Shown: positions 4,551 through 26,180 of the stretch, piece after piece | How positions within the stretch are numbered: the first letter of the stretch is position 1 | Layout: the number at the start of each line of letters is the position of its first letter | Assembly (NCBI RefSeq): GCF_003287955.1 | Contig: NZ_QMKP01000004.1 | Span: forward strand, 1 to 64,000 | Reading direction: 5' to 3' | Length of the DNA: 64,000 bases | Source of the DNA: Arthrobacter sp. AQ5-06 | Lineage (GTDB): Bacteria; Actinomycetota; Actinomycetes; Actinomycetales; Micrococcaceae | Program-made: the position numbers and the translations under genes | Notes under the pieces: model-generated | Databases searched by the model: none | Seen by the model: the letters and a program-made list of their open reading frames with translations, nothing else | Told to the model about the DNA's origin: nothing

Positions 4551-4559
4551 CTGCATGGA

Positions 4560-9198: not shown

Positions 9199-10725
9199 AT
9201 GAAGTTAGGTCCCAAGGCGGCCATCACCGCCATCACCGTCAGCGCGGCTCTCGCGCTGACAGCCTGCGGCGGCGGCACTGCTAAGCCCGGGTCTGGCGTT
9301 CCGGCAGCCACCGCCCTGACCATCGGCGCGCTCGCGGATGTCCGGTCATGGGATCCGGCCCAGGCTCACGTGGGCCACACTCTTCAGCCCTACCAGGCGG
9401 CCTACGATTCGCTGATCCTGCGCGAGCCGGACGGAAAGCTCAGCCCCATGCTGGCGACGGCGTGGAAGTACAACGCGGCAAACACGGTCCTCACCGTTGA
9501 TCTCCGCACGGACGTCACCTTCAGTGACGGAGCCAAGTTCGACGCCGAGGCCGCCAAGTCCAACCTGGACCACTTCAAGAAGGCCAACGGCCCGCAGATG
9601 GCCCAGCTGACCTCCGTTGCGGACGTCAAGGTGGTGGATGCCGACACCATCGACCTCAACCTGACCACCCCGGACCCTTCACTGGAGTACTACCTCAGCC
9701 AGGCCGCCGGCCTGATGGGCAGCCCCAAGGCTCTGGGTACCGAAGCCATCAAGACCGAACCTGTTGGCAGCGGCCCCTACGTGATGGAGAAGGCTTCATC
9801 GGTCAAGGACTCCCAGTCCGTCTTCAACGCCCGCAAGGACTACTGGAACAAGGACCTGCAGAAGTACCAGAAGCTCACCTTCAAGATCCTTGCCGACATA
9901 ACGGCCCGCACCAACGCCCTGGTGTCCGGACAGGTAGACGCTGCACTCCTGGACCCCAAGACAGGCAAGCAGGCCGAAGGCGCCAAGATGATTCTGGCCA
10001 AGAACGAGGTCGACTGGCAGGGACTGCTGCTCATGGACCGCGACGGCACCAAGAACCCTGCCCTGAAGGATGTCCGCGTCCGCCAGGCCATCAACTACGC
10101 CTTCGACCGCAAGACCATCCTGGACCAGGTCATGCTCGGCCAAGGCACCCCCACCTCCCAGCCGTTCGGCAAGGAGAGCGGTGCCTGGGATGAAAAGCTC
10201 GAGAACAAGTACCCGTACGATCCGGCCAAGGCCAAGGCGCTCCTGAAGGAGGCCGGTTACGCGTCCGGTCTGACTATTGAAGTCCCTGCCATCCCGAACT
10301 TCGAGACCCAGATCTCCGTTGTCAAGCAGCAGCTCGCCGACATTGGCATCACCATGAATATCGGTGCTGCCCTGACCAACACCTTCACCAGCGACGTCGC
10401 CGCGCAGAAGTTCAACACCATGTACTTCTCCCTCTTCCAGGGTGAGCCGTGGGTCGCCATCAACCAGATGATCTCCACCAAGGCTCTGTACAACCCGTTC
10501 AAGAACACGACCCCTGAACTCCAGGCCAAGATCGACGCCGTCCAGAACGGCGGCACGGATGCAAACAAGCTGGCGCAGGAAGTCAACAAGTATGTTGTGG
10601 AACAGGCTTGGTTCGCCCCGCTCTTCCGGGTCAACCAGATGTATTACCACAACTCCAAGGTGGACGTGAAGCCGCAGATCCAGATGGCTGTCCCGTCGAT
10701 CTACAACTACTCGCCGGCCAAGTAG
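9199..10725 (+). CDS. ABC transporter substrate-binding lipoprotein, family 5
   Basis: This 508-residue extracytoplasmic solute receptor has a signal peptide ending in the lipobox LTAC (Cys about residue 23), so it should be lipid-anchored. The mature part matches bacterial extracellular solute-binding protein family 5 (DppA/OppA-like): DSLILREPDGKLSPMLATAW, FSDGAKFDAEAAKSNLDHF and VRQAINYAFDRKTILDQV. The family binds peptides but also oligosaccharides and plant glycosides. Here the uronate and sugar-enzyme neighbours argue for a carbohydrate ligand. The ATG is preceded by TAGGAGCC. It is the first gene of a six-gene operon and is followed by an intercistronic hairpin, consistent with higher expression of the binding protein. 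Confidence 0.92.
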   Translation: MKLGPKAAITAITVSAALALTACGGGTAKPGSGVPAATALTIGALADVRSWDPAQAHVGHTLQPYQAAYDSLILREPDGKLSPMLATAWKYNAANTVLTVDLRTDVTFSDGAKFDAEAAKSNLDHFKKANGPQMAQLTSVADVKVVDADTIDLNLTTPDPSLEYYLSQAAGLMGSPKALGTEAIKTEPVGSGPYVMEKASSVKDSQSVFNARKDYWNKDLQKYQKLTFKILADITARTNALVSGQVDAALLDPKTGKQAEGAKMILAKNEVDWQGLLLMDRDGTKNPALKDVRVRQAINYAFDRKTILDQVMLGQGTPTSQPFGKESGAWDEKLENKYPYDPAKAKALLKEAGYASGLTIEVPAIPNFETQISVVKQQLADIGITMNIGAALTNTFTSDVAAQKFNTMYFSLFQGEPWVAINQMISTKALYNPFKNTTPELQAKIDAVQNGGTDANKLAQEVNKYVVEQAWFAPLFRVNQMYYHNSKVDVKPQIQMAVPSIYNYSPAK

Positions 10726-10746
10726 TCCCAGCGACGTAGCCTTCCA

Positions 10747-10786
10747 GTTCCGGTAGCCCGACCAGCCAAGGGCGGGGTACCGGAAC
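10747..10786 (+). other. Intercistronic hairpin after the binding-protein gene
   Basis: GTTCCGGTA (10747-10755) pairs with TACCGGAAC (10778-10786), extended by a CCC/GGG pairing inside. It lies in the 98-bp gap between the binding protein and the first permease. It has no T-run, so it is more likely to stabilise the upstream mRNA or partly attenuate transcription than to terminate fully. Confidence 0.55.
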
Positions 10787-10823
10787 CAGGCAGCCATCCA
10801 AGGCCAGTTCAACGGAGCCAGCA

Positions 10824-11765
10824 ATGATCAGATTCATCCTCAAGCGCCTCGGCAGCGGACTCGTGGTCCTGTTTGCCGTCTCGGCACTCACGTTCTTCCT
10901 GCTCTACATCTCGAGCGGCAGCATCGCCCGGAACATCCTGGGCGACCAGGCAACGCCAGAGCAGTTGGCATTGAAAGAGGCCGAACTCGGCCTGGACCAG
11001 CCCATCCTTGCCCGCTACTTCAGGTGGCTCGTGAACGCCTTCGGCGGTGATCTCGGCGCTTCCTGGTTTACCTCGGAGCCCGTGACCAGCTCCCTCGCCA
11101 CCCGCATCCCGGTGACCATGACCATGGTCTTCACGGCCATGATCCTCATCGCGATCATCGCAACACTTATCGGCGTCGCTGCGGCAGTGAAACGCGGCTG
11201 GGTTGACCGCGTGGTCCAGATCGGCGCGATCATCGGTGACTCCGTCCCGGGATTCGTGATCGGCGTTCTCCTGGTGACAATCCTCGCCATCCAGCTTGGA
11301 CTGTTCCCTGCAACCAGCACCATTTCCCCCGGCTCACCCCCGGACGCCTGGGTGCTGTCCATGACCCTTCCCGTGATCGCCCTGCTGATCAACGGCGTCA
11401 CCGGCGGTGCGCAGCAGATCCGCAGCGCCGTCATCAAGCAGTTGGAGCGCGATTACGTCCGCACACTCCGCAGCCGCGGCATCGGAGAGCGCGAGATCCT
11501 CTTCAAGCACGTCCTGCGCAGCGCCGCACCGGCCGGCCTTACCGTCCTCAGCCTCCAGCTGATCGGCATGCTCGGCGGTGTGGTCATCCTCGAACAGATC
11601 TTTGCCCTGCCCGGGATGGGCCCCCTCGCCGTCACTGCAACCAGCCAGAGCGACCTGCCCGTGGTCATGGGCGTCGTTATGTACACCGTCGCCGTCGTCA
11701 TTGTGGTCAATCTCCTGGTGGACCTCGCGAACGGCTGGCTCAACCCGAAGGTGCGTACCTCATGA
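10824..11765 (+). CDS. ABC importer permease (DppB/OppB-like)
   Basis: This 313-residue inner-membrane protein has about six predicted membrane helices, from the N-terminal LGSGLVVLFAVSALTFFLLY to the C-terminal VVMYTVAVVIVVNLLVDL. The DppB-type cytoplasmic loop containing RSAVIKQLERDYVRTLRSRG is the EAA-like contact to the ATPase. It forms the import pore with the permease half of the next protein. The stop overlaps the next start by four bases (ATGA), indicating coupled translation. GGAGCC lies just before the ATG. Confidence 0.93.
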   Translation: MIRFILKRLGSGLVVLFAVSALTFFLLYISSGSIARNILGDQATPEQLALKEAELGLDQPILARYFRWLVNAFGGDLGASWFTSEPVTSSLATRIPVTMTMVFTAMILIAIIATLIGVAAAVKRGWVDRVVQIGAIIGDSVPGFVIGVLLVTILAIQLGLFPATSTISPGSPPDAWVLSMTLPVIALLINGVTGGAQQIRSAVIKQLERDYVRTLRSRGIGEREILFKHVLRSAAPAGLTVLSLQLIGMLGGVVILEQIFALPGMGPLAVTATSQSDLPVVMGVVMYTVAVVIVVNLLVDLANGWLNPKVRTS

Positions 11766-13609
11766 CCGAGTCCGTAGAAACTTCTGCCCTCACTCCACTT
11801 CCAGGGACAGCAGGCCAGACCGGAACTGTGGTGCGTTCACACATTCTGAAGCGGCTCTTCAAGAACCCGCTCGGCATCATCGCCGTCGGAATCCTGCTGA
11901 CCATGTCGCTCCTTGCAGTCTTCGCAGATGTGCTGGCACCGTTCGAAGAGAACTTCGCCAACATCTCCAAGACACTGGCAGACCCCGATGGCGTCAACAT
12001 CCTGGGCACCGACAGCGCCGGGCGCGACGTCTGGAGCCGGTTGCTTTTCGGCGCCCGCCTGACCCTGCTCTCAGCACTCCTGTGCGCCGGCGTTGCAATC
12101 GGCATCGGCCTGCCGGCCGGACTGATCGCGGGCTACTACGCCGGCAAGTTCGAAGCCATGTCCAACTGGGTGGTCAGCATTCTCATGAGCCTCCCGGGCC
12201 TGATTGTGCTGCTGACCATCCGGGCAGCCTTCGGACCGTCTGTGTGGATCGCCATGATAGCCTTCGGCATCCTGATCAGCCCGTCCTATTTCCGCCTGAC
12301 GCGCACCACTGTGCAGTCTGTGCGTAATGAGCTGTACGTAGACGCGGCACGCGTTTCCGGCCTGTCCGATCTCAGCATCATCACCCGCCACATCTTCTCC
12401 GTGGTCCGGGCACCCATCATCATCCAGACCGCGGCCATTGCCGGTGTGGCCATCGCCATCCAGTCCGGACTTGAGTTCCTGGGCCTGGGCGATCCTTCCA
12501 AAGCCAGCTGGGGTGTCATGCTGAGTGAAGGCTTCAAGAACGTCTACCTCAAGCCGCAACTGCTGTTCTGGCCGGCCTTCGCCATGGCATTGACCATCGG
12601 TGGCCTGGTGCTGCTGGGCAACGCCATCCGCGATGCGCTGGAGGACAGCGAGAAGATCAAGCACCGTAAGAAGCCAGTGGTAAAAGGCACGACGGCGGCA
12701 CCCGCCAAGACACGCGCCGAGCGGAGGTCCGTGGCCGCCGTGGACGTCGGAACCGAACACCACCTGCTGAAGGTCACCAACCTCGGTGTCGGCTACCCCC
12801 AGGCTGACGGTTCGGTCAAGAAGGTGGTGGACGATGTCTCCTTCTATGTTGACCGCGGCGAGATCCTGGGGATCGTGGGCGAGTCCGGTTCTGGAAAATC
12901 CCAGACGGCCTTCTCCATCCTCGGCCTGCTGCCGGACAACGCTCGGATCGTCGCCGGTTCCATCCAGTTCGACGGCAACTACACCGTGGCTCCCGGTGAT
13001 GAACGGGTGAACCAGGGCCGGCTTTCCAAGCTCCGCGGCAAGCGGATCTCCTACATCCCGCAGGAACCCATGAGCAACCTGGACCCGGCCTTCACCATAG
13101 GCTACCAGCTGGTCACGCCCATGGTGCGGGTGCTCGGTATCTCCAAGGCCGAGGCAACCAAGCGGGCCATGAAGCTGCTGTCCGACGTCGGCATCGTGAA
13201 CCCGAAGCGAACCTTTGACGCCTACCCGCACGAAGTCTCCGGCGGCATGGCACAGCGCGTGCTGATTGCCGGCGCCATCAGCTGCGAACCGGATCTGGTT
13301 ATCGCTGATGAGCCGACGACGGCCCTGGACGTCACGGTTCAGGCCGACGTTTTGGACCTGATCCGTGAGCTCCAAATCCGCCTGAACATCGGCGTGGTGC
13401 TGGTGACGCACAACTTCGGCGTCGTGGCGGATCTTTGTGACCGGGTTGTGGTGATGCAGAACGGGCGCCTTATTGAAGAGGGTCCGGTCCGCGATATCCT
13501 CCGCAATCCGCAGGAAACCTATACCCAGACACTGCTGGGATCCATGCTGGAAGGCAAGGAACCCATGACCATGCTCGTTTCATCTAGCCCCAAGGGAGCC
13601 GCATCATGA
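11762..13609 (+). CDS. Fused ABC importer permease (DppC) and ATPase (DppD)
   Basis: One 615-residue reading frame joins two usually separate subunits. Residues 25-300 form a DppC-like permease with the DSAGRDVWSRLLFGAR motif and the EAA-type loop YVDAARVSGLSDLSIITRHI. After a basic, Ala-rich linker (about 300-330), residues 335-600 form an ATPase with Walker A GESGSGKSQ, signature VSGGMAQRV and Walker B LVIADEPTTALDV. Such fusions are known in actinobacterial peptide/nickel-type importers, so this is not a sequencing artefact. It overlaps its neighbours by four bases on both sides. It energises uptake of the ligand of the upstream binding protein. Confidence 0.93.
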   Translation: MTESVETSALTPLPGTAGQTGTVVRSHILKRLFKNPLGIIAVGILLTMSLLAVFADVLAPFEENFANISKTLADPDGVNILGTDSAGRDVWSRLLFGARLTLLSALLCAGVAIGIGLPAGLIAGYYAGKFEAMSNWVVSILMSLPGLIVLLTIRAAFGPSVWIAMIAFGILISPSYFRLTRTTVQSVRNELYVDAARVSGLSDLSIITRHIFSVVRAPIIIQTAAIAGVAIAIQSGLEFLGLGDPSKASWGVMLSEGFKNVYLKPQLLFWPAFAMALTIGGLVLLGNAIRDALEDSEKIKHRKKPVVKGTTAAPAKTRAERRSVAAVDVGTEHHLLKVTNLGVGYPQADGSVKKVVDDVSFYVDRGEILGIVGESGSGKSQTAFSILGLLPDNARIVAGSIQFDGNYTVAPGDERVNQGRLSKLRGKRISYIPQEPMSNLDPAFTIGYQLVTPMVRVLGISKAEATKRAMKLLSDVGIVNPKRTFDAYPHEVSGGMAQRVLIAGAISCEPDLVIADEPTTALDVTVQADVLDLIRELQIRLNIGVVLVTHNFGVVADLCDRVVVMQNGRLIEEGPVRDILRNPQETYTQTLLGSMLEGKEPMTMLVSSSPKGAAS

Positions 13610-14526
13610 CTGCATCCGCAGGCCCTGTTTCCGGCAGCGCAGCTTCCGGCGGCGGGGCACAGATCCGCGCTGAACTGCTCCGGGTAGACAACCTGGTGGT
13701 GGAGTACCCGGGCAAGGGATTCCGGGCCAAGCCCTTCCGTGCCCTCACTGCTATCAACATCTCCATCGGCCAGGGCGAGACCCTGGGCCTGGTGGGGGAG
13801 TCAGGCTCCGGTAAAACCACCCTCGGCCGGGCGGTCCTCGGCCTTGCACCTGTCACGGGCGGCAAGATCATCTTCGAGGGCAACGACATAAGCCGCGCCA
13901 GCCGCAAGCAGCGCCGGGTCCTGAGCCGCGACCTCCAAGTGGTGTTCCAGGATCCGTACACGTCGCTCAACCCCGCGCTGGAGATCGGCGACATCCTGGC
14001 TGAGCCCCTCGGCGTCCAGGGCAAATCGCCGGCCGAAGCCAAAAAGCGCGTTCGGGAACTGCTGGACCAAGTAGGCCTTCCGAGCGATGCCATCCACCGG
14101 CTTCCGCGTGAATTCAGCGGCGGACAGCGCCAGCGTGTGGCAATTGCCCGGGCCTTGGCGCTTTCTCCGAAGCTGATCGTCTGCGATGAGCCGGTGAGCG
14201 CCCTGGACCTTTCCACCCAGGCCCGTGTGCTGGACCTTTTCCTGCAGATCCAGAAGGACACAGGCGTCTCCTACCTCTTCGTGTCCCATGATCTCGACGT
14301 GGTCCGCCACATAAGCCACCGGGTGGCTGTTATGTACCAGGGCGAGATCGTGGAGCAGGGGCCGGCCGACTTCGTTACGAGCACCCCGGGACACCCGTAC
14401 ACGCAACGGCTGCTGCTGGCCTCCCCGGTCCCTGACCCGGACCGCCAGGAAAAGCGACGTGCGGACCGTCACCGGCTGCTGGAAGTCCAGCGGATGCAGA
14501 ACGAACAGGCCGGCGTCCTCGCCTGA
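13606..14526 (+). CDS. ABC importer ATP-binding protein (DppF/OppF-like)
   Basis: This is the second ATPase of the importer, 306 residues. It has Walker A GESGSGKTT (about residues 65-73), signature FSGGQRQRV, Walker B LIVCDEPVSALDL and the H-loop in FVSHDLDVVRH. The C-terminal oligopeptide/dipeptide extension begins near GHPYTQRLLLASPVPDP. It completes a binding protein - permease - permease/ATPase - ATPase set. The start overlaps the previous stop by four bases. No promoter is seen between it and the sugar enzymes that follow. Confidence 0.94.
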   Translation: MTASAGPVSGSAASGGGAQIRAELLRVDNLVVEYPGKGFRAKPFRALTAINISIGQGETLGLVGESGSGKTTLGRAVLGLAPVTGGKIIFEGNDISRASRKQRRVLSRDLQVVFQDPYTSLNPALEIGDILAEPLGVQGKSPAEAKKRVRELLDQVGLPSDAIHRLPREFSGGQRQRVAIARALALSPKLIVCDEPVSALDLSTQARVLDLFLQIQKDTGVSYLFVSHDLDVVRHISHRVAVMYQGEIVEQGPADFVTSTPGHPYTQRLLLASPVPDPDRQEKRRADRHRLLEVQRMQNEQAGVLA

Positions 14527-14572
14527 GGACACCCGTCTGGGACTGAAGAACACACAACAACGAAGGAACAAC

Positions 14573-15433
14573 GTGGCCAAAATAGGCGTACAGGCGATGA
14601 TGCTGAAGGACAGCTTCACGGAGCTCGGGGCGTTTGAAACGCTCCGCAAGGTGAGCGCGATCGGCTACAACGCCGTCGAAATCTCGCAGATCCCCATGAC
14701 CCCGGAAAACGTGGCGGAACTGGACCGTTCCCGGACTGAACTGGGAATGGACATCGCGGCTCTTTCCGTGGCTCTGGACACGCCGAAGGGCATTCCCGGC
14801 GACTCGCTCAAGGATGACTTCGACAAAATCGTTGGCGACGCCAGGCGCCTGGACTCGAAGCTCCTGAGGATCGGCATGCTGCCCTTCGCGGCGATGAAGT
14901 CCCTGGACGGCGTGGTGGATTTCGCCAGGCGGGCCAACGGCTACGCAGAACGCCTGCAGGAGCACGGCATTGGTTTGTACTACCACAACCACCACATCGA
15001 GTTTGCGAAGTTCGACGGCAAGTACATGCTGGACGTGATCGCGGACCATTCCCCGGCAATGGGCCTGGAAATCGACGTCCACTGGGTCCAGCGCGGCGGC
15101 CTTGATCCCGTCCGGACCATCGACAAGTACGCCGGCCGGGCCGCCATGATCCACCTCAAGGACTACCGGATCGGCCAGCTGCCGGAGTCGGCCTTCGGGC
15201 TGCTGGAGTCCGGGAACATCATGGGCTTCATGGCTGATTTCAAGAACGTGGTGCAGTTCGCCGAGGTGGGCGAAGGCAACCTCGACTTCCCCTCGATCAT
15301 CCAGCACGCCCAGGCTGCCGGCGCCGAATACCTGCTCGTGGAACAGGACGAACTCTACGGTCGCACCGTATGGGACGCTCTGCAGACTTCCTACGACAAC
15401 CTGGTGGCCATGGGCCACGCGGACCTTTTCTAA
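14573..15433 (+). CDS. Sugar phosphate isomerase/epimerase-like TIM-barrel protein
   Basis: This 286-residue xylose-isomerase-like TIM-barrel protein has likely metal ligands in LYYHNHHIEF, LEIDVHWVQRGG, MIHLKDY and LVEQDE. I place the start at GTG 14573 with GAAGGA six bases upstream. An in-frame start further upstream would overlap the ATPase gene without a ribosome-binding site. It follows the importer with a 46-bp gap and precedes a Gfo/Idh/MocA oxidoreductase, repeating the pairing at 7094-8949. Related proteins include the TIM-barrel subunit of C-glycoside-cleaving enzymes as well as ordinary isomerases. The reaction here is not determined. Confidence 0.83.
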   Translation: MAKIGVQAMMLKDSFTELGAFETLRKVSAIGYNAVEISQIPMTPENVAELDRSRTELGMDIAALSVALDTPKGIPGDSLKDDFDKIVGDARRLDSKLLRIGMLPFAAMKSLDGVVDFARRANGYAERLQEHGIGLYYHNHHIEFAKFDGKYMLDVIADHSPAMGLEIDVHWVQRGGLDPVRTIDKYAGRAAMIHLKDYRIGQLPESAFGLLESGNIMGFMADFKNVVQFAEVGEGNLDFPSIIQHAQAAGAEYLLVEQDELYGRTVWDALQTSYDNLVAMGHADLF

Positions 15434-15494
15434 GACGCCCCAACCAGACTTCCGCCACGAGACTTCTGCAAAACAAGATACGGAGAATCAACAC

Positions 15495-16661
15495 ATGAGC
15501 AAGAAAGTACGCCTCGGCATCATCGGCCTGGGCCAGCAGGGTGGCGCCTACGCCAAGTTCATCAAGGACGGGCTGGTCCCCAACATGGAGATCGGCGCCA
15601 TCTGCGACCATGATTCGGCGAAAAAGGACCGGGCGGCCAACGAGTACCCAGGCGTTGCTTTCTATGACGACTACATCGCCATGCTGGAAAGCGGCGACGT
15701 TGACGCCGTTGTCACCTGCGTACCGCATTTCCTGCACCCGGAAATGGGCATCGAGACACTCAAGCACAATATCCACGCCCTCGTGGAGAAGCCTGCCGGT
15801 GTCTACACCAAGCAGGTCAAGGAACTGAACGAGTTTGCTGCCGGCAAGCCGGAACTGTCCTTCGCCATCATGTTCAACCAGCGCAACAACCCGCTCTACC
15901 AGCGTCTCAAGGAGATCGTGGACAACGGCGAGATCGGCAAGATCCGCCGCACCAACTGGATCATCACCACCTGGTGGCGGCCGCAGGGGTACTACAACTC
16001 CAGCGAATGGCGCGCCACGTGGGGCGGCGAAGGCGGCGGCGTCCTGGTCAACCAGGCGCCGCACCAGCTGGACCTGTGGCAGTGGATCTGCGGCGTGCCC
16101 AAGTCCGTCTATGCGAAGGTGGCCTACGGCTTCCGCCGGGACATCGCCGTCGAGGATGAAGTCACCGCAGTGGTGGACTATGGCGACGGCGCCACGGGTG
16201 TTTTCGTGACCGCCACCCACGACCTCACGGGCACGGACCGCTTCGAGATCCTGGGCGATCAGGGCAAGATCGTTGTCACGGACAGCAAAACCGCCACCGT
16301 GACGCGCATGACGAGGCCTGAGCGCGAGCTTAGTGACGGAATGGGCATGGAGGACGTCCGGAAACTGTTCATGGGCGAGCTGAACACAGAGGATTACTAC
16401 GCCACTGAAGTCATCGAGTTCGAATCCGCGTGGGGCGCTCAGCACTCCGGCGTGCTGGAGAACTTTGCCGCCAACATCCTGGACGGCACCCCGCTGCTGG
16501 CCCCTGGCTCGGACGGCATTATCGGCGTCCGCCTGGCCAATGCCATCCATCTCTCCAGCTGGACAGGCAAGGAAGTTGGGTTGGACTTCGATGAAGACCT
16601 GTACCTGGAGGAGCTGAACAAGCGCATCAGCGAAGAAGGCAAGTTCCCCGAGCGGATCTAG
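15495..16661 (+). CDS. Gfo/Idh/MocA-family oxidoreductase
   Basis: This 388-residue oxidoreductase begins with a dinucleotide-binding fold (GIIGLGQQGGAYAKFI) and contains the VEKPAG motif (about residue 98) with the catalytic lysine. The substrate-binding C-terminal half includes GEGGGVLVNQAPHQLDLWQW. It is about 50 residues longer than the oxidoreductase at 7942 and not closely similar, so the two pairs are probably not a recent duplication. It has its own AGATACGGAGA ribosome-binding region and is the last gene of the importer operon, followed by a hairpin at 16694-16732. It likely oxidises or reduces a ring hydroxyl of the imported carbohydrate. Confidence 0.88.
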   Translation: MSKKVRLGIIGLGQQGGAYAKFIKDGLVPNMEIGAICDHDSAKKDRAANEYPGVAFYDDYIAMLESGDVDAVVTCVPHFLHPEMGIETLKHNIHALVEKPAGVYTKQVKELNEFAAGKPELSFAIMFNQRNNPLYQRLKEIVDNGEIGKIRRTNWIITTWWRPQGYYNSSEWRATWGGEGGGVLVNQAPHQLDLWQWICGVPKSVYAKVAYGFRRDIAVEDEVTAVVDYGDGATGVFVTATHDLTGTDRFEILGDQGKIVVTDSKTATVTRMTRPERELSDGMGMEDVRKLFMGELNTEDYYATEVIEFESAWGAQHSGVLENFAANILDGTPLLAPGSDGIIGVRLANAIHLSSWTGKEVGLDFDEDLYLEELNKRISEEGKFPERI

Positions 16662-16766: not shown

Positions 16767-17828
16767 GTGACTGAACCTACTAATCCGGAAGTTGCCGCAA
16801 CAACAGATCCGGTCAAAAAGAATGGCCGGGACGGTAAGTCCAAGCCCACCATCTACGATATCGCCAAGGTTGCCGGAGTAAATCCGTCCACCGTGTCCAG
16901 GGCGCTCAGCAAGCCGGGCCGGGTCAGCGCCAAGACGCAGAAAATGATCGAGGATGCCGCCGCCGAACTCAACTATCGCGTCAACCCCTTTGCCCGCGCC
17001 CTGCCCACCGGCCGGACCAACACCCTTGGCCTGATCGTTGCTGACATCACCAACCCCACATTTTTCGGCATCATCCGCGGTGCCGAATCAACGGCCACGG
17101 CCCGCGACTACACCCTGATGCTCGCCGAGTCCGCAGAGTCTTCCGAGACCGAGCTGACCGCGGCCCGGCGCATGATGGCAACCGTGGACGGGCTCATTCT
17201 GGCCAGCCCCCGCATGGACGATGACCACATCCGTGCCCTCGCCGGGGACAAGCCCGTAGTGGTCATCAACCGCGAGGTGGAGGGCGTCCCGTGCGTGGTG
17301 CCGGATGTCAACAAAGGAATCGGCGAAGCCATCCGCAGTCTCGCCGCCAACGGCCACAAGAAGATCGCCTACGTGGCCGGGCCCCCGCAGTCATGGATGT
17401 CCGGACGACGCTGGGAAGGCGTCCAGGCCGCGTGCGAGTGGTCCAAGCTTGAAGCCGTGCGGCTGGAATCCTCCAAGCCAACGGTCGACGGCGGTCGGCA
17501 GGTAGCGCGCGACGTCCTGTCCAGCGGTGCCACGGCTGTGCTCACCTACAACGATCTCCTGGCCATCGGCCTGATGCAGGAACTCCAGGCGGCCTCTGTG
17601 GTGGTGCCGGACCAGATCAGCATTGTGGGCTTCGACGATATTTTCGGGGCGGACTTCACCACCCCGCCGCTCACCACGGTGCGCTCGCCGATGGCGGAAT
17701 GCGGCACCGAAGCGGCAACCCTGCTGCTGGACGTGCTCCACGGCACCGAACATCCGGTGTCCACCCTGCGGGTCGAGACCGAGCTGGTGCTGCGGGGCTC
17801 CAGCGGCAGGCTTCTCCGCGGCGGCTAG
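16767..17828 (+). CDS. LacI-family transcriptional regulator (regulon regulator 2)
   Basis: This 353-residue LacI-type repressor has an N-terminal extension, a helix-turn-helix (TIYDIAKVAGVNPSTVSRAL, about residues 28-47), a hinge (ELNYRVNPFARALPTGRTN) and a ligand-binding domain ending in FGADFTTPPLTTVRSP. The GTG start at 16767 sits seven bases after a TAGTAT box with no ribosome-binding site, so the transcript looks leaderless. It lies between the importer operon and the glucuronate isomerase gene, whose promoter carries a near-perfect operator (17972-17989). It is a good candidate for the main regulator of the four sites, but regulator 1 is similar enough to compete or share. Confidence 0.93.
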   Translation: MTEPTNPEVAATTDPVKKNGRDGKSKPTIYDIAKVAGVNPSTVSRALSKPGRVSAKTQKMIEDAAAELNYRVNPFARALPTGRTNTLGLIVADITNPTFFGIIRGAESTATARDYTLMLAESAESSETELTAARRMMATVDGLILASPRMDDDHIRALAGDKPVVVINREVEGVPCVVPDVNKGIGEAIRSLAANGHKKIAYVAGPPQSWMSGRRWEGVQAACEWSKLEAVRLESSKPTVDGGRQVARDVLSSGATAVLTYNDLLAIGLMQELQAASVVVPDQISIVGFDDIFGADFTTPPLTTVRSPMAECGTEAATLLLDVLHGTEHPVSTLRVETELVLRGSSGRLLRGG

Positions 17829-18018: not shown

Positions 18019-19449
18019 ATGTCACAGTCGATTGCCGCTAACCCAGACCGGCTCCTTCCCGCGGACCCCGGAACGCGCAGCATTGCGCGCGCCCTGCTGG
18101 AGCGCGTCGAGGACCTCCCCATCATTTCCCCGCACGGCCACGTTGACGCTTCTGTCATCGAACGGAACACGCCGTTCCCGGATCCGGCCGCCCTGCTGGT
18201 CAGCCCTGACCACTACGTCACCCGCCTGATCCATTCAAGCGGCGTAGCCCTTGACCAGTTGCGGCCGCAGGCCGGCGCCCAGGCAGGCGACGCCGAAGCC
18301 GCCTCGCCGGATTCCCGGACCGTCTGGCGCGAATTCTGCAAGTCGTGGCCGCTGTTCGAAGGCACCGCGTCCGGTTACTGGCTCCGCAACCAGTTCGACA
18401 GCGTGTTCGGCCTCCAGCACGAGATCAGCGCCGACAATGCAGACGCCACCTACGATGCGATCTCAGCCAAGCTGCAGGAACCTGGCTTCCGTCCGCGCCA
18501 GCTGTTCAAGGACTTCAACATCGAGGTGCTGGCCACTACGGATGATCCGCTGGATGACCTGGCCAGCCATAAGGCGATCGCCCAGGATCCCATCTTCCAC
18601 GGCCGAGTGCTCCCCACGTTCCGTCCTGATGCCTACCTGAGCCCGGCAAACCCGGCGTGGTCCGCCAATGTGGACCGCCTCATCGCGGCAGCGGGCGACG
18701 GCGTGACCGGCTATGCCGGATACATCACCGCGCTCGAGAACCGGCGTCGATATTTCGTGGATCACGGTGCAGTCTCCGCTGACCACGGCGTCCGCACACC
18801 GGCAACTCTCAAGCTCGACGCCGCGGACGCGGCCGGGCTGTTCGAACGCGCGCGCTCGGGCCAGGCCACCGCCCAGGACCGCGAAGACTTCGAAGCCCAC
18901 ATGATGTACCAGATGGCGCGGATGTCCGTGGAAGACGGATTGGTCATGACCATCCACCCGGGCTCCTTCCGCAACCACCACACCGCCACGTTCAACACCT
19001 ACGGTGCGGACACCGGTCACGACATCCCGTTCGCCATCAACTACACCGAGGCCATCCGCCCGGTGCTGCAGGACTTCGGCACGGCCAAGGACTTCCACCT
19101 GGTGCTGTTCACCATGGACGAGACCGTGTACTCACGCGAACTGGCTCCGCTCGCCGGCTTCTACCCGGCCGTGTACCTCGGTGCGCCGTGGTGGTTCCTG
19201 GACGCACCGGACGCCATGCTCCGCTTCCGTTCGGCTGTGACGGAAACAGCCGGTTTCTCCCGTTCCTCCGGATTCATTGACGATACCCGCGCCTTCTGCT
19301 CCATCCCTGCACGGCACGATACTTCCCGCCGGATCGAGGCCTCGTTCCTGGCCCGGCTCGTGGCCGAACACCGGGTCAGTGAAGACCGTGCCCATGAACT
19401 GATCGTCGATCTCGTCGACGCATCCCCGAGAAGGGTATTCAAGCTGTGA
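18019..19449 (+). CDS. uxaC: Glucuronate (uronate) isomerase
   Basis: This 476-residue cytosolic enzyme interconverts D-glucuronate and D-fructuronate (and D-galacturonate and D-tagaturonate), the first step of hexuronate catabolism. Family signatures include ISPHGHVDASVIERN near the N-terminus (metal-binding His residues), VLATTDDPLDDLASH, MTIHPGSFRNHH and YLGAPWWFLDAPDAMLRFR near the C-terminus. Length is close to the usual 470. No Shine-Dalgarno is visible before the ATG and the -10 ends just before it, so translation is probably leaderless. Its stop overlaps the next start by four bases (GTGA), coupling it to the reductase. Operator site 3 lies 30 bp upstream. Confidence 0.95.
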   Translation: MSQSIAANPDRLLPADPGTRSIARALLERVEDLPIISPHGHVDASVIERNTPFPDPAALLVSPDHYVTRLIHSSGVALDQLRPQAGAQAGDAEAASPDSRTVWREFCKSWPLFEGTASGYWLRNQFDSVFGLQHEISADNADATYDAISAKLQEPGFRPRQLFKDFNIEVLATTDDPLDDLASHKAIAQDPIFHGRVLPTFRPDAYLSPANPAWSANVDRLIAAAGDGVTGYAGYITALENRRRYFVDHGAVSADHGVRTPATLKLDAADAAGLFERARSGQATAQDREDFEAHMMYQMARMSVEDGLVMTIHPGSFRNHHTATFNTYGADTGHDIPFAINYTEAIRPVLQDFGTAKDFHLVLFTMDETVYSRELAPLAGFYPAVYLGAPWWFLDAPDAMLRFRSAVTETAGFSRSSGFIDDTRAFCSIPARHDTSRRIEASFLARLVAEHRVSEDRAHELIVDLVDASPRRVFKL

Positions 19450-20906
19450 CCACCAACCAGACCGGGCCTGCCGTTTCCGCGGCAAACTCACTGCCCCAAA
19501 CCTCACTGTCCCAACTGAGCCGTACCCTCAGGCCGGTTGCCAAGGCTCCCGTGCGGATTGTCCATCTGGGGCTGGGCGCCTTCCACCGCTCTCACCAGGC
19601 CTGGTACACCCACCAGGCGGGCAATTCCGCAGAGTGGGGCATCGCCTCCTTCACCGGACGCCGGCCGGACGCCGCGCTGGCACTGGCAGAGCAGGACGGA
19701 CTGTACACCGTGGTGGAACGCGCCGACTCCGGAGACTCCTTCGAGGTCATCAACAGCATCGTTGAGGCTGTGGACGGGGCCGACGTCGGCAGGCTCGCCG
19801 AGTTGGTGGCTGCACCGGCCACCGCCGTCATCACCTTGACCATCACCGAAGCCGCTTACCGGCTCGGCTCTGACGGCCAGCTTGACCGCTCAGCTCCCGA
19901 CGTCGTCGCGGACCTTGCGCTGCTGGCTGACGGCGGCGCGGGAAAAGGCAAGCCGACGACGCCGCTGGGCCGGCTGGTCTTCGCGCTCGCCGCCCGCCGG
20001 GCTGCCGGAGCCGGGCCGCTCGCCGTCGTCTGCTGTGACAACCTCTCCAACAACGGCACCGTTGCGCACAGTGCAGTGGTGGGACTGGCCGGAGCCTGGG
20101 ATGCAGAACTGGCAGCCTGGATCGATGCGAACATCAGCTTTGTCAGCACTTCCGTGGACCGCATCACGCCGCGGACCACGGAAGCGGACCTCGCTGCCGT
20201 CGAGGCCGCCTGCGGTTACCGCGACAACTCACCGGTGGTGGCCGAACCCTTCCGTAATTGGGTGCTCAGTGGGGAATTCCCGGCCGGGCGTCCGCGCTGG
20301 GAAGATGCCGGCGCCGTGTTTGTGGACGATATTGAACCGTACGAGAACCGCAAACTCTGGCTCCTCAACGGCGCGCACTCAATGCTTGCCTACGCCGGAC
20401 AGCTGCGCGGCCACACAACCGTAGCCGAGGCCCTGGGGGACCCGTTGTGCCTCCGGGCTGTGGAACGATTCTGGGATGAGGCCGAGGCGAACCTGCACGG
20501 TGCGGACCTGGAGATCCCCACATACCGTGCGGCTCTGCTGGAGCGCTTCAGCAACGCCCGCATTGCACACCACCTGGCCCAGATCGCCATGGACGGCAGC
20601 ACCAAGCTGCGTATGCGTGCTGTGCCGGTGCTCCAGGCCGAGCGGGCGCAGGGCCGGTCCGGTTCAGCAGCGGCGCTTGTGATCGCCGCCTGGATGGACT
20701 TCAGCGGGATGGACTTTAGCGCAACTGCTGCCGGGTTCCACGATCCGCTCGTGGCAGAGGTGTCAGCGGCCAATCGGCTCAGCGGCACCGGTCGCACCCG
20801 CGCAATGCTGGCCCTACTCAATCCGGCCCTGGCAGGAGATGACGCCGTAGTGCAGCTCATTGAGAACCTCAGCGGTTCGTTCTCCGGGCTGGCTGTCCAG
20901 GAGTAG
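19446..20906 (+). CDS. uxuB: Mannitol-dehydrogenase-family uronate reductase (fructuronate reductase-like)
   Basis: This 486-residue NAD-dependent polyol dehydrogenase has the N-terminal HLGLGAFHRSHQAWYT nucleotide-binding motif, VVCCDNLSNNG, and the catalytic helix KLWLLNGAHSMLAY (Lys, Asn and His positions of the family). Translational coupling to glucuronate isomerase makes fructuronate reduction to D-mannonate the most likely reaction; tagaturonate or mannitol activity cannot be excluded from sequence alone. The GTG start overlaps the uxaC stop. A hairpin at 20925-20967 ends the unit. Confidence 0.88.
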   Translation: MTTNQTGPAVSAANSLPQTSLSQLSRTLRPVAKAPVRIVHLGLGAFHRSHQAWYTHQAGNSAEWGIASFTGRRPDAALALAEQDGLYTVVERADSGDSFEVINSIVEAVDGADVGRLAELVAAPATAVITLTITEAAYRLGSDGQLDRSAPDVVADLALLADGGAGKGKPTTPLGRLVFALAARRAAGAGPLAVVCCDNLSNNGTVAHSAVVGLAGAWDAELAAWIDANISFVSTSVDRITPRTTEADLAAVEAACGYRDNSPVVAEPFRNWVLSGEFPAGRPRWEDAGAVFVDDIEPYENRKLWLLNGAHSMLAYAGQLRGHTTVAEALGDPLCLRAVERFWDEAEANLHGADLEIPTYRAALLERFSNARIAHHLAQIAMDGSTKLRMRAVPVLQAERAQGRSGSAAALVIAAWMDFSGMDFSATAAGFHDPLVAEVSAANRLSGTGRTRAMLALLNPALAGDDAVVQLIENLSGSFSGLAVQE

Positions 20907-21120: not shown

Positions 21121-22602
21121 ATGAAAAAGCTGAACAAGCTCAGCATCGTCGGCTATGGCGCCGGCGACGCCGCAAACAACCTCGCTTTCACCACCGCCAC
21201 CATGTTCCTGCTGGTGTACTACACGGATGTAGCCGGCATTTCCGCCGCTGCCGCCGGTACCCTGCTCCTGGTTGTGCGGATCTTCGATGCCTTCGCTGAC
21301 GTCTTTGCCGGCCGTGTGGTGGACCGTGCGTTCAGCAAGCGGTTCGGGAAGTTCCGTCCGTTCATCATGTTCGGCTCCATCCCGCTGCTCCTGTTGAGTG
21401 TGGCAACGTTCTCTATCCCCGAGCTCGGCGAATCCGGCGCGCTGCTCTACGCCTACGTCACCTACGCGGCCTTGGGCCTCGCGTACAGTCTGGTCAACAT
21501 CCCCTACGGTTCGCTGGCCGGCGCCATGACCCAGGACCCGGGCGAAAGGGCCAAGCTTGGCTCGGCCCGCATGGTTGGCGCACTGTTGGTTGGCTCGGCA
21601 CTTGGAATCTTTGTAGCACCGCTGATCAAGCCGGGTGCCGATCTCCAGTCCACCTTCACCACCATCACGCTGGTATTTGTGGTGATCGGTGCAGGCCTGT
21701 ACTTTTTCACCGTACTGACTACCAAGGAACGCGTTCACCGCGCAGTACCCAACGTCAGCTTCAAGCAGAGCATGGACACCCTCAAGGGCAATAAGCCGCT
21801 GATGATGCTGTGCCTTAGCTCCTTCTTCTTCCTCACCGGTTACCTGGCGCTGACCTCGGTCCAGCTCTACTACCTGCGTGACGTCCTGCACCGACTGGAT
21901 CTCTACCCGGTACTGTCCATCATCCAGCTGGTGCTGACCTTCGTGCTCGCAGCGGTCATGCCCAGGCTCGTCCGCAACTTCGGCAAGAAGAAGGTCTACA
22001 TCTACTCGTCGCTGCTCACCGTGGCTGGCGGCATCATCATTTTCCTGACGCCTGCCAGTCAGGTGTGGGTCGGCTTCTCGGGCCTCCTGCTCAGCCTCAT
22101 GGGCGTCCTCGCGGTAAACATCGTGGTGTGGGCCCTCGAAGCGGACACCGTTGAGTACGGAGAATGGAAGACCGGCGTCCGCACCGAAGGCATCACTTAC
22201 GCGCTGTTCTCCTTCACCCGCAAGACCGGCCAGGCTGTGGGCGGCGCACTTGCCGCTTATGCGCTGGCACTCGGCGGCTACAAGTCCGGCGCGGTTCAGA
22301 GCGCCGACGCCGTCTTCGGAATCCAGTTTGCCGCCGGCGCCCTGCCTGCAGTCATGACCATACTGGCCGTACTGGTGATGTCCAAGTACACGCTCACGGA
22401 TGCCACGCACGCCCGGATCCTGACCGAAATCCGCGCCCGCCGCGAAGGCGGCGTCATTGGGGGCGCCGCCTCCGAAGCTCCCGCCCCCGAAGGCACCACG
22501 ACGGCAGGCAACGCAAACGGAATGTCCGACGCCGCCGTCGAACCTTCAGATGCTGCCACACCTTCCGATGCTGCCAAGCCGCTCGCGGCCGGCACCAACT
22601 AA
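21121..22602 (+). CDS. GPH-family glycoside/uronide:cation symporter (MFS)
   Basis: This 493-residue membrane protein has about twelve predicted helices. Motifs of the glycoside-pentoside-hexuronide family include GYGAGDAANNLAFTTATMFL at the N-terminus, RIFDAFADVFAGRVVDR and EADTVEYGEWKTGVRTEG. Members (UidB- and YicJ-like) import beta-glucuronides, xylosides or hexuronates with Na+ or H+. The context with uxaC and manD favours a glucuronide or hexuronate. A C-terminal tail of about 50 residues is Ala/Ser/Asp-rich and probably disordered, which is unusual for the family. AAAGGAG lies seven bases before the ATG. It starts a three-gene unit behind operator site 4. Confidence 0.92.
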   Translation: MKKLNKLSIVGYGAGDAANNLAFTTATMFLLVYYTDVAGISAAAAGTLLLVVRIFDAFADVFAGRVVDRAFSKRFGKFRPFIMFGSIPLLLLSVATFSIPELGESGALLYAYVTYAALGLAYSLVNIPYGSLAGAMTQDPGERAKLGSARMVGALLVGSALGIFVAPLIKPGADLQSTFTTITLVFVVIGAGLYFFTVLTTKERVHRAVPNVSFKQSMDTLKGNKPLMMLCLSSFFFLTGYLALTSVQLYYLRDVLHRLDLYPVLSIIQLVLTFVLAAVMPRLVRNFGKKKVYIYSSLLTVAGGIIIFLTPASQVWVGFSGLLLSLMGVLAVNIVVWALEADTVEYGEWKTGVRTEGITYALFSFTRKTGQAVGGALAAYALALGGYKSGAVQSADAVFGIQFAAGALPAVMTILAVLVMSKYTLTDATHARILTEIRARREGGVIGGAASEAPAPEGTTTAGNANGMSDAAVEPSDAATPSDAAKPLAAGTN

Positions 22603-22638
22603 GACCCCCCCGACTCAGTCCACTTGAAAGGAACTGCT

Positions 22639-23868
22639 GTGAAAATTGTTGCCGCGGAAGTTTTCGTGACAAGCCCCTCCCGGAACTTCGTGACCCTGAG
22701 GATCACCACGGACGACGGCGTGACGGGCATCGGGGATGCCACGCTGAACGGCCGCGAGCTGGCGGTTGCCGCGTACCTCAAGGAACACGTTGCGCAGCTG
22801 CTGATCGGCAAGGATCCGCACCGGATCGAGGACACCTGGCAGTTCCTGTACCGCAGCTCGTACTGGCGCCGCGGCCCGGTCACCATGGCCGCCATCGCAG
22901 CCGTCGACATGGCCCTGTGGGACATCAAAGGCAAGGTGGCCGGCATGCCGGTTTATCAGCTGCTCGGTGGTGCGTCCCGGAACGGCCTGCGCGCCTACGG
23001 CCATGCCTCCGGTGCGGACATCCCCTCGCTTTTCGACTCCGTGCGGGAGCACCTGGAACTCGGCTACAAATCGGTCCGGATCCAGACCGCCGTCCCCGGC
23101 ATCAAGGCCGTCTACGGTGTTGCCGCGCAGGCCCAGGCCTCCGGCGAGCGCTACGACTACGAGCCCGCAGGCCGCGGCGCCTTCCCGGTGGAGGAGGACT
23201 GGGACACCCGCGCGTACCTGCGCCACCTGCCGTCCGTGTTTGAGGCCGTCCGCAACGAATTCGGCCCCGAGCTGCCGCTGCTCCATGATGGCCATCACCG
23301 CATGACACCCATCCAGGCGGCCAAGCTGGGCAAGGCGCTGGAGCCGTATGACCTGTTCTGGCTCGAGGACTGCACCCCGGCGGAGAACCAGGAGGCGCTG
23401 CGCCTGGTCCGCCAGCACACCACCACGCCGCTGGCCATCGGGGAGATTTTCAACACCGTGTACGACTTCCAGAGCCTGATCAAGGAACAGCTGATCGACT
23501 ACGTCCGCGCAGCCTCCACCCACTTCGGCGGCATTTCCCCGCTGAAGAAGGTCATGGACTTCGCCGCCCAGTACCAGATCAAGTCCGGCTTCCACGGCCC
23601 CACCGACATCTCCCCGGTGGGCTTCGCCGCCCAGCTGCACGTGGGCCTGGCCATCCACAACTACGGCATCCAGGAATACATGCCGCATTCCCCGGCCACC
23701 AACACGGTGTTTGAGCAGTCCATGACGTTTGTGGACGGCTACCTGCATCCGGGCGACAAGCCCGGCATCGGCGTCGAATTCAATGAAGAAGCAGCCAACA
23801 CCTACCCCTACCAGCAGGCCTACCTGCCCTACAACCGGCTGGTCGACGGAACGGTGCATGACTGGTGA
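22639..23868 (+). CDS. manD: D-mannonate dehydratase, ManD/RspA type (enolase superfamily)
   Basis: This protein of about 409 residues belongs to the mannonate dehydratase subgroup of the enolase superfamily and should convert D-mannonate to 2-keto-3-deoxy-D-gluconate with Mg2+. Supporting motifs are [20 protein letters not shown], the long insertion [54 protein letters not shown] and the C-terminal [10 protein letters not shown] choose the GTG at 22639, with AAAGGA six bases upstream, rather than an in-frame TTG at 22624. It supplies the third step after uxaC and uxuB. Some ManD-family members are slow or prefer gluconate, so activity level is uncertain. It overlaps the next gene. Confidence 0.92.
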
Positions 23869-26180
23869 TGAACGCTGAATCTTCCCAAGCTGCGGTGGCA
23901 GCCGGCCCGCGCATCCTCGTCATGGGGGTATCCGGCTGCGGCAAAACCACCATCGGTGCCCTCGTGGCGCACCAGCTGGGCGTGTCGTTCATCGACGGCG
24001 ATTCCCTCCACCCGGTGGAAAACGTCGTCAAGATGGCTGCCGGCACCCCGCTGACGGACGAGGACCGCTGGCCCTGGCTGGCCACCGTGGGCAATGAACT
24101 GGACCGCGCCGGTTCCGCCGGACTGGTCCTTGCCTGCTCTGCACTCAAACGCAGCTACCGCGACGCCATCCGGGCTAAGGCCCCGGACGCCGTGTTCCTG
24201 CACCTGCATGGAAGCAAGGACGTCCTGGGGTCGCGGCTCGAGGGCCGCAGCGGGCACTTCATGCCCGCCGCGCTCCTGGAATCCCAGCTGGCAACTCTGG
24301 AACCGCTCGACGCCGATGAAGCTGGCTTTGTGGTGGACATCGCCTCGCCTGTGGGGCAGGTTGTTTCCGAGGCGCTGGCTGGCCTTGTGGATGGCGGCGA
24401 ATTCGGTCCGGCGCAGCCGGCCGCTGTCCGTCCGGGCCGCTTCCTCGTAGACCTGAAGGTCGCGCCGTTCGACCTCGACGACGACGCCATCGCCTGGGTG
24501 GACTCCACCATCGGTTCCATGAGCCTTGAGGAAAAGATCGGGCAGCTGTTCATCAACCACAACAACGACTACTCCCCGGAATACCTCGACGATGTGCTGG
24601 ACAAATACCACGTGGGCGGCATGTGCTACCGGCCCGGACCCTCCGCCGCGGTGCAGGAACACATCCGCTACGCGCAGTCGAAGTCCAAGGTGCCGCTGCT
24701 GGTGGCGTCCAACCCGGAAATGGGTGGAGCAGGTAGCTGCGACGACGGCACGTTTGTGTCCACGCACCTGCAGGCAGGTTCGCACCCGGACAAAAACATT
24801 GCCCGCCAGATGGGGCAGATTGCCGGCGTTGAAACCGCAGCCTTGGGCTGCAACTGGGCTTTCGCTCCGATCGTGGACATCCACTACAACTGGCGGAACA
24901 CGGTCATCTCCACCCGGGCCTTCGGCAACACGCCGGAGATCGTGGTGGAACGGGCCAAGGAGTACTTCGACGGCATCAGTGAATCACCCACTGCCTGCGC
25001 CATGAAGCACTTCCCGGGCGACGGCATGGACGAGCGCGACCAGCACGTGGTCACGTCCTACAACACTCTCGGCTACGACGAGTGGAACAAGACGTACGGG
25101 CACGTGTACCGCGAAATGATCGGGCACGGCGTGCAGTCCATCATGATCGGGCACATCGGCGCGCCGGAGCTTTCGCGGCACTTCCGCCCGGGCATGGCGG
25201 ACAGGGACGTCCTTCCCGCCACGCTGGCGCCGGAGTTGCTCCAGGATCTGCTGCGCGGCGAGCTGGGCTTCAACGGGCTGATTCTCACCGATGCTTCGCT
25301 GATGATCGGCCTGACCCAGGCGATGAAGCGCAAGGACCTGGTGCCGGCCACCATCGCCGCGGGCTGCGACATGTTCCTGTTCTTCCGCAACCCGGCCGAG
25401 GACTTCCAGTACATGCTGGACGGCTACAAGGCCGGCGTCGTCACTGAAGAGCGCCTGCATGACGCCTTGCGCCGCATCCTGGCCCTCAAGGCCTCGCTGG
25501 GGCTGCACCTCAAGGCACGCAACGAACTGGTTCCTCCGGTGGAAGCCCTGGCGAAGATCGGCAGCGCGGAGCACCGCGCCGTTGCCGCGGAGATCGCGGA
25601 CAAGACCGTCACACTGATCAAGGACACCGCCAACTACCTGCCCATCACGCCGGAGACGCACAAGCGGATCCGTCTGTACGGCATCTCGGGCGGCTCGGAC
25701 TTCACCCGTTCGGATCCGCTGGCCTACTTGGACACCGTGAAGGACGAGCTCGAAAAGGCCGGCTTTGAGGTACACGTATTCAAGACGGCAGACCAGCGCG
25801 AGGCTGCGGGGGAGACCGGCATTAACTTCATGTCCGTGATCTCTGAGGAAGCCACAGGGGACTACGCAGACAAGTATGACGCCGCCTTTGTTTTCGCCAA
25901 CGTCAAGGGCTTTGCCCAGGAAGCGGCCATCCGGATCAAGTGGTCCACGCCCATGGCGGCGGAGATCCCCTGGTATGTCACCGAGGTCCCCACCGTGTTC
26001 GTCTCGCTCAACCAGCCCAACCACCTCATCGACGTGCCGATGGTCAAGACCGCCATTCACGCCCATGCGGGGTCGGTGGAGGCCATCCGGGCCACTATCG
26101 GGAAGATCATGGGCGAGTCCGAGTTCCAGGGGACGTTCAACGAGAATGTCTTCTGCGATTCCTTCGACACGCGGCTCTAG
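23868..26180 (+). CDS. Gluconokinase-like kinase fused to GH3 (NagZ-like) hydrolase
   Basis: This single open frame of about 770 residues contains two enzymes. Residues 16-170 match GntK/IdnK gluconokinase: P-loop GVSGCGKTT (20-28), IDGDSLHPVENVVKMAAGTP, DEDRWPWLATVG, CSALKRSYRD and GHFMPAALLESQLATLEPL. After a linker of about 35 residues, residues 204-560 form a GH3 TIM barrel of the beta-N-acetylhexosaminidase type. It carries the pattern KHFPG-x-G-x4-D-x-H (380-393) that holds the NagZ Asp/His acid-base dyad, and LTDAS with the predicted nucleophile Asp475. A second alpha/beta domain follows to the end. No signal peptide is present, so it acts inside the cell. The start (ATG, or GTG three bases earlier) overlaps the manD stop. 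No frameshift or stop separates the halves. Substrates of both domains are unknown. Confidence 0.9.
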   Translation: MNAESSQAAVAAGPRILVMGVSGCGKTTIGALVAHQLGVSFIDGDSLHPVENVVKMAAGTPLTDEDRWPWLATVGNELDRAGSAGLVLACSALKRSYRDAIRAKAPDAVFLHLHGSKDVLGSRLEGRSGHFMPAALLESQLATLEPLDADEAGFVVDIASPVGQVVSEALAGLVDGGEFGPAQPAAVRPGRFLVDLKVAPFDLDDDAIAWVDSTIGSMSLEEKIGQLFINHNNDYSPEYLDDVLDKYHVGGMCYRPGPSAAVQEHIRYAQSKSKVPLLVASNPEMGGAGSCDDGTFVSTHLQAGSHPDKNIARQMGQIAGVETAALGCNWAFAPIVDIHYNWRNTVISTRAFGNTPEIVVERAKEYFDGISESPTACAMKHFPGDGMDERDQHVVTSYNTLGYDEWNKTYGHVYREMIGHGVQSIMIGHIGAPELSRHFRPGMADRDVLPATLAPELLQDLLRGELGFNGLILTDASLMIGLTQAMKRKDLVPATIAAGCDMFLFFRNPAEDFQYMLDGYKAGVVTEERLHDALRRILALKASLGLHLKARNELVPPVEALAKIGSAEHRAVAAEIADKTVTLIKDTANYLPITPETHKRIRLYGISGGSDFTRSDPLAYLDTVKDELEKAGFEVHVFKTADQREAAGETGINFMSVISEEATGDYADKYDAAFVFANVKGFAQEAAIRIKWSTPMAAEIPWYVTEVPTVFVSLNQPNHLIDVPMVKTAIHAHAGSVEAIRATIGKIMGESEFQGTFNENVFCDSFDTRL

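Follow-up and report, generated by a model that had tools for sequence, protein, structure and literature searches.

BglX/BglP (PDB 5VQD, 5VQE) is presented in the available text of PMC8950772 as a beta-glucoside phosphorylase of glycoside hydrolase family 3 (GH3), and an Asp/His pair is given there as the acid-base dyad of this GH3 branch. In the case of L. suebicus, the available part of PMC6978723 reports that extracts phosphorylated mannonate, which was then epimerised to 6-phosphogluconate; UxuA, KdgK and KdgA are encoded there, yet none of the three proteins was detected. A GntK homologue was suspected, and as of 2020 no genes had been assigned to mannonate kinase and the subsequent 2-epimerase. 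The same text gives an earlier proposal for Thermotoga, in which a mannonate 2-epimerase gene (GntE) lies between those of fructuronate reductase and gluconate kinase. In the present work, a gene was analysed that joins a gluconokinase-like kinase and a BglX-type GH3 enzyme in one frame of a 64,000-nucleotide stretch of Arthrobacter sp. AQ5-06 (contig NZ_QMKP01000004.1, positions 1 to 64,000; the window). Both halves come from established families; what is new, as a variant, is their fusion and its setting. The GH3 half resembles BglX/BglP in its full-length match, two-domain fold, Asp/His dyad and nucleophile, but the latter has no kinase. The kinase half passed the subfamily cut-off of the GntK/IdnK-type gluconokinases (TIGR01313; PDB 3T61, 1KNQ) and carries all their motifs; unlike a typical GntK, it is fused to a GH3 enzyme and has ManD, of the mannonate dehydratase family, as its partner in place of a gluconate permease.

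The open frame at 23868-26180 (+) encoded 770 residues with no internal stop, from ATG 23868 (or GTG 23865) to the stop codon at 26178-26180. With TIGR01313, the kinase half scored 187.3 bits against a cut-off of 113.75 at residues 16-170; its Pfam matches were SKI and AAA_33, and the PfkB family was not among them. The GH3 half scored 190.2 bits with PF00933 (cut-off 27) at residues 220-539, and the position of the Asp nucleophile was kept. The GntK motifs, the KHFPG-x-G-x4-D-x-H barrel motif and the second C-terminal domain, which an earlier note on this DNA had read in one uninterrupted frame, were all found in place. The structure prediction which that note had proposed resulted in a mean predicted local distance difference test (pLDDT) value of 87.7 and a predicted template modelling score of 0.74 with a 76-row alignment. 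Linker residues 179-190 were below pLDDT 50, and the linker between the halves is predicted to be disordered. When the linkers of 11 fused genes were compared, they shared no conserved internal start codon preceded by a Shine-Dalgarno-like site; single fused genes do have an internal start by position, as the window's gene does at GTG codon 174 with GAGG 14 bases upstream. Judged from these linkers, separate translation of the GH3 half appears unlikely. The fusion is real and forms a single reading frame.

The spread of the fusion was determined in a family sample of 395 Micrococcaceae genomes, in which two candidates per genome were scored at E<=1e-60; the counts, taken from match rows, are lower bounds. 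The intact full-length fusion was detected in at least 52 genomes, 49 in the window's genus group and three in two other genera. The halves were separate neighbouring genes in at least eight genomes (L035-L038, L046-L049) and the GH3 gene had no neighbouring kinase in at least three (L039-L041), gene order being checked in both cases, while at least four held a broken or partial copy (G252, G390, G098, G386). Over eight pairs of fused genes, the ratio of nonsynonymous to synonymous substitution rates (dN/dS) was 0.09-0.19 for the kinase, 0.05-0.15 for GH3 and 0.46-1.48 for the linker, which shows purifying selection on both domains. The fusion is old and kept. A sequencing or assembly error joining two genes, for which the relatives with two separate neighbouring genes could be quoted, was rejected due to the same open frame in 52 genomes; with dN/dS far below 1 in both halves, its probability is negligible.

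Outside the family, the fusion was not seen in the order, class, plasmid and BglX-type samples searched. The order sample consisted of 396 genomes with two candidates each; among the matches listed, 23 non-family genomes had a long GH3 match, and all of these started at residue 166 or later. In the class sample, at least 2 of 394 genomes had a GH3 match at E<=1e-60 (three candidates scored per genome). One of 106 plasmid records, that of Arthrobacter sp. StoSoilB13 (Micrococcaceae; L262), covered at least 80% of the query. In this record, indels break the frames of the fusion (in GH3), UxaC, LacI and Gfo genes, perhaps reflecting assembly quality. No report of a GntK-GH3 fusion was found in the literature search, in line with the statement of the earlier note that no characterised one is known. 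The available text of PMC8171050 describes no fusion; for Arthrobacter sp. PAMC25564 it lists a GH3 gene (226049_223737) which, at 2313 bases, is as long as the fusion gene of the window.

The GH3 tree gives a tentative history of the fusion. Within the family clade, most split forms branched off near the base, and of the 38 fused rows all but one (37) were nested above them; the remaining row, L045, stood among the split forms. The label 'fused' required four changes, three of them forced by the starred branches, and the long outgroup branches were flagged. From the same tree, the kinase seems to have been lost later in L041 and in L039/L040. In L039, a dihydroxyacetone kinase gene (5857-7596 -) lies beside the GH3 gene that has no GntK neighbour.

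The genes upstream of the fusion (Table 1) point to beta-glucuronoside use. We tentatively propose, at somewhat less than an even chance, that the protein is bifunctional and consists of a glucuronoside-cleaving GH3 half and a hexonate (gluconate or mannonate) kinase half; the glucuronidase function of the GH3 half we infer from gene order only. The wide family loci compared numbered 37 (L035-L054, L072-L083, L225-L229, a few of them without this GH3), among them 17 with the fusion (L072-L083, L225-L229). UxaC, UxuB, ManD, GntK and GH3 were found together in all 17 fused loci, and UidB in nine. Glycosides would enter via the UidB-type carrier, where present, and the GH3 half of the probably cytosolic protein would release glucuronate. 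As UxaC acts on the free sugar, hydrolysis is the more likely mode of cleavage. Glucuronate would then be converted to mannonate by UxaC and UxuB. At the stage of ManD, the kinase half would phosphorylate C6 of a hexonate, either gluconate or mannonate, and the product would enter the pentose phosphate pathway by way of 6-phosphogluconate. The fusion may have arisen via loss of the stop codon between two neighbouring operon genes and would therefore connect a step near the start of the route with one near its end, with other steps lying between them. Whatever benefit this may bring, it looks like a joining of entry and exit.

The identity of the GH3 half bears on the first of these steps. The earlier note had called it NagZ-like; the assignment to GH3 stands, whereas NagZ identity was rejected with 109.3 bits on PRK05337 against an equivalog cut-off of 207. 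The GH3 half shares the barrel and the KHFPG-x-G-x4-D-x-H motif with NagZ, a GH3 beta-N-acetylhexosaminidase, while NagZ of the E. coli type is not known to have a second domain. Among PDB entries, BglX was the best match by sequence (E 3e-119 over residues 196-770) and by fold (5VQE/5VQD, template modelling score 0.93-0.94 on the target, 36% identity), so that 'NagZ-like' is too distant a label and BglX is the closest known protein. Asp391 and His393 were invariant in 58/58 family rows and 76/76 rows of BglX type; Asn282, Glu284, Arg350, Lys380, His381, Asp391, His393, His429 and Asp475 were kept in 58/58 and in 75 or 76 of 76, respectively, the window's genome being counted twice and some genomes more than once among the family rows. 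Asp475 is the residue which we take to be the nucleophile from general GH3 enzymology. Between the BglX-type rows and the window's clade, 35 positions and one insert differed (thresholds 90% and 80%), including Thr306His, Asp339His, Asn348Ser, Tyr718Asn and Tyr733His. At position 253, Met of the BglX type was replaced by Arg in 56/58 family rows, the two exceptions being the window's own sequence with Cys. The extra basic residues in the clade would suit an acidic sugar. With the GH3 half, the BglX branch, so far one of glucoside phosphorolysis, may thus reach uronosides as well.

This close relationship also allows a different, somewhat unlikely reading, in which the GH3 half still acts as a BglX-type phosphorylase or hydrolase of beta-glycosides, but with a different sugar or aglycone, and stays in the operon because of a uronate-containing substrate or of shared regulation. 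The match to BglX and the identity of the dyad and of most checked catalytic positions speak for it, as does the usual neighbour in the BglX clade. In the BglX-type set, the best 80 of 473 relatives (L094-L173), a beta-phosphoglucomutase-like gene was detected in 62 loci, within 500 bases of GH3 in 36 and on the same strand in 60; the two representatives tested were both over the TIGR01990 cut-off. These neighbours support phosphorolysis across the BglX branch, and the caution of the earlier note that such GH3 enzymes may be phosphorylases was well placed. UxaC, UxuB, ManD and GntK were absent from all 80 loci at E<=1e-5, and a UidB-like carrier was found in 10. In contrast, no beta-phosphoglucomutase-like gene was detected in any of the 37 wide family loci or, at E<=1, in the window, which argues against this alternative, as do the 35 differing positions and the insert, Thr306His, Asp339His and Tyr733His among them.

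Unfused GH3 relatives were found in several settings. In L203, L204 and L205, from another family, a glycoside-pentoside-hexuronide (GPH) carrier, GH3, UxuB and an Eda-like gene stand together, with UxuA in L203 and L205, the two examined for it, and UxaC in L205; L206 has a carrier as well. In L201 (72% identity), GH3 is beside 6-phosphogluconate dehydrogenase and an isomerase/Gfo/ABC (ATP-binding cassette) set resembling the window's. The uronate genes of L203-L205 and the dehydrogenase of L201 favour the proposed glucuronoside route. Neither gene set was present in L207, L210 and L202, the last lying near an alpha-L-rhamnosidase. A beta-phosphoglucomutase gene accompanies GH3 in L208, L209 and L211 (37-42% identity). 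The alpha-L-rhamnosidase genes near GH3 of this branch are located at 7713-10553 + in L102 and at 806-3118 - in L202; the gene family of the former occurs in 17/80 BglX-type loci, which hints at plant rhamnosides.

A GH2 beta-glucuronidase, UidA, would perform the step proposed for the GH3 half, although the two belong to unrelated families. Such a gene was detected in the operon itself in two of the 37 wide family loci. In the fused locus L226 (G388), a gene of 607 residues between UxuB and UidB (7119-8939 -) scored 885 bits with NF007538 (cut-off 544), and in the split locus L048 (G263) a 75% identical gene (3467-5239 +) occupies the same place. By similarity to the L226 gene, GH2 beta-glucuronidases were also found near GH3 in L206 (11653-13404 +) and near ManD-GntK in L242 (6-1484 +). 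According to the available text of PMC8171050, the GH2 beta-glucuronidase gene of Arthrobacter sp. PAMC25564 (230633_228825) lies 2.8 kb from its 2313-base GH3 gene. The presence of GH2 in the operon confirms that the operon handles beta-glucuronides. The idea that GH3 generally stands in for a missing GH2 glucuronidase was rejected, as L226 and L048 have both; it holds for the window's own genome by one model. No GH2 beta-glucuronidase was found in the window or in the other 35 of the 37 wide family loci, which is unfavourable to a GH3 half acting on something other than glucuronosides, and for the window and its genome, with GH2 as the one glucuronidase family searched, the operon offers no candidate for the glucuronide bond besides GH3. 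Due to GH2 beside GH3, including L206, our estimate for glucuronoside cleavage coupled with a hexonate kinase was lowered from an even chance to below it, and that for a GH3 half with another substrate was raised from unlikely to somewhat less so.

The kinase half was examined through its partner gene. GntK was found behind ManD with no adjoining GH3 in L053, L088, L090 and L091; GntK thus follows ManD even without GH3, and the kinase would therefore serve the sugar-acid end of the pathway. In the best-matching 26 ManD loci outside the family (1.5 kb flanks), GntK flanked ManD in seven (L235, L237, L239, L242, L251, L253, L258), and KdgK-like and Eda-like genes were present in four, two of which (L239, L258) had GntK too. 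In another genus, a second GntK copy lies near the operon (L035-L038, L045-L049, L089-L091), and 12 such copies form a clade of their own.

The position of GntK as the terminal kinase of the UxaC-UxuB-ManD route suggests another function, that of a 2-keto-3-deoxygluconate (KDG) kinase replacing the PfkB-type KdgK: ManD would give KDG, the kinase would convert it to 2-keto-3-deoxy-6-phosphogluconate (KDPG), and an aldolase would split KDPG. Neither a KdgK-like nor an Eda-like gene was present in any of the 17 wide fused loci, 17 of the 52 fused genomes had no match at E<=1e-30 to the KdgK-like protein of the window's genome, and a KDPG aldolase (PF01081) was detected in 44/52 fused genomes, the window's included. 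The looser model NF040938, however, found a PfkB kinase in 16 of those 17 genomes, none over the cut-off, and every GntK motif was canonical. The eight fused genomes besides those 44 with an aldolase gave no PF01081 match, four of them being assemblies of at most four contigs, and all eight keep UxaC, UxuB, ManD and the fusion. Because of these eight genomes and of the two outside clusters, L239 and L258, in which Eda-like, KdgK-like, ManD and GntK genes occur together, a KDG kinase is not favoured and is considered unlikely; a hexonate (gluconate/mannonate) kinase appears to be the better reading of the kinase half.

The fused loci resemble the L. suebicus route in that UxaC, UxuB and a GntK homologue occur together, as found in 17/17 wide fused loci, although no GH3 fusion is described for L. 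suebicus in the available text of PMC6978723. As for the KDG branch, ManD was present in 17/17 of these loci, and a KDPG aldolase gene was detected in 44/52 fused genomes but not in eight. A corresponding glucuronate-to-pentose-phosphate route can be formulated, in which GH3 would cleave glucuronosides, the kinase half would give the 6-phosphate, and the interconversion of mannonate with gluconate, or of the respective 6-phosphates, would fall to ManD or another partner. ManD would then hold the place of the proposed Thermotoga GntE. This was given the same low probability as the KDG kinase, after a slight reduction due to the GH2 genes. ManD aligned end to end with solved members of the mannonate dehydratase family and scored as a dehydratase (Table 1), which speaks against it as an epimerase. 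The ManD-GntK pair kept in the eight fused genomes with no detected KDPG aldolase is a small candidate set for the mannonate kinase and 2-epimerase genes.

Several observations weigh against a glucuronoside-cleaving hexonate kinase as the role of the fusion. On the side of GH3, the closest characterised enzyme is a phosphorylase of gluco-configured donors, and no GH3 beta-glucuronidase was found in literature searches judged by titles. Where GH2 is present, as in L226, L048 and L206, plain beta-glucuronides can be handled without GH3, whose substrate may then be a different one. The lack of an NF007538 match in the window's own genome, the E. coli control being positive, speaks for GH3 as the glucuronidase, but this was the one model searched, and GH30, GH79 and other glucuronidase families were not. 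The window's codon 253 (24624-24626) encodes Cys in place of the Arg in other family rows, which may change activity. UidB is missing in 8/17 wide fused loci, and the UxuB score of 281.5 bits is below the NCBIfam cut-off of 603. On the side of the kinase, ManD scores as a mannonate dehydratase with KDG as its product. The window's genome contains three PF01081 aldolases, a KdgK-like and Eda-like pair elsewhere, both below the NCBIfam cut-offs, and a further Eda/PfkB/dehydratase set; KDG could thus be usable there. A separate GntP and GntK pair also lies elsewhere in this genome.

The earlier note had suggested that an imported glycoside is split and one product phosphorylated at once. Formulated for a glycosyl-aldonate, with the released aldonate phosphorylated by the same protein, this would agree with the two activities predicted in one chain and with the GntK motifs, which are those canonical for gluconate. 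ManD accompanies the kinase gene whether GH3 adjoins or not, GH3 occurs with no adjacent kinase in three family genomes (L039-L041), and the long GH3 matches listed for 23 outside genomes begin at residue 166 or later. UxaC, UxuB and ManD would also intervene between the presumed glucuronate and the substrate of GntK. The suggestion was therefore not upheld, and we regard it as very improbable.

Table 1. Positions of the fusion gene, its parts and the neighbouring genes in the window.
Feature	Position	Strand	Basis
Dpp/Opp-type ABC importer surrounded by two Gfo/Idh/MocA and two isomerase-like TIM-barrel genes	7094..16661	+	
LacI-type regulator upstream of UxaC	16767..17828	+	
UxaC glucuronate isomerase	18019..19449	+	NF002794, 564.3 bits, cut-off 387
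UxuB-like fructuronate reductase	19446..20906	+	NF011611, 281.5 bits, below cut-off 603
UidB-type glucuronide transporter	21121..22602	+	NF007353, 644.1 bits, cut-off 528
Mannonate dehydratase homologue of the ManD family (the kinase's partner gene)	22624..23868	+	NF043051, 686.6 bits, cut-off 550
GntK-GH3 fusion gene, 770 residues	23868..26180	+	Frame translation; ATG shares one base with the ManD stop codon
GntK/IdnK-type kinase domain, residues 14-174 (P-loop, DGDSLHP, GHFMP)	23907..24389	+	TIGR01313; PDB 3T61, E 8.7e-50
Linker, residues 175-193	24390..24446	+	pLDDT <50 at 179-190; low conservation
Two-domain GH3 enzyme of BglX type, residues 194-770 (N boundary approximate)	24447..26177	+	PF00933; sequence and fold matches
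D475, presumed catalytic nucleophile	25290..25292	+	Invariant in family and BglX-type rows
D391-Q-H393, Asp/His acid-base dyad of this GH3 branch	25038..25046	+	Invariance; role according to the available text of PMC8950772

Further upstream, the triosephosphate isomerase (TIM)-barrel, Gfo/Idh/MocA and importer genes of the window perhaps represent a second way of opening glycosides, by oxidation and elimination; the Gfo/Idh/MocA and TIM-barrel families are among those used in such pathways. Oxidation-elimination pathways are described in the available texts of PMC7676230 and PMC10628242. Parts of this gene set recur near the unfused GH3 in L201 and L205. Within the set, an OppC-type permease and an OppD-type ATPase share a single frame of 615 residues (11762-13606 +), and L226, L231 and L201 have frames of similar length in the corresponding position.

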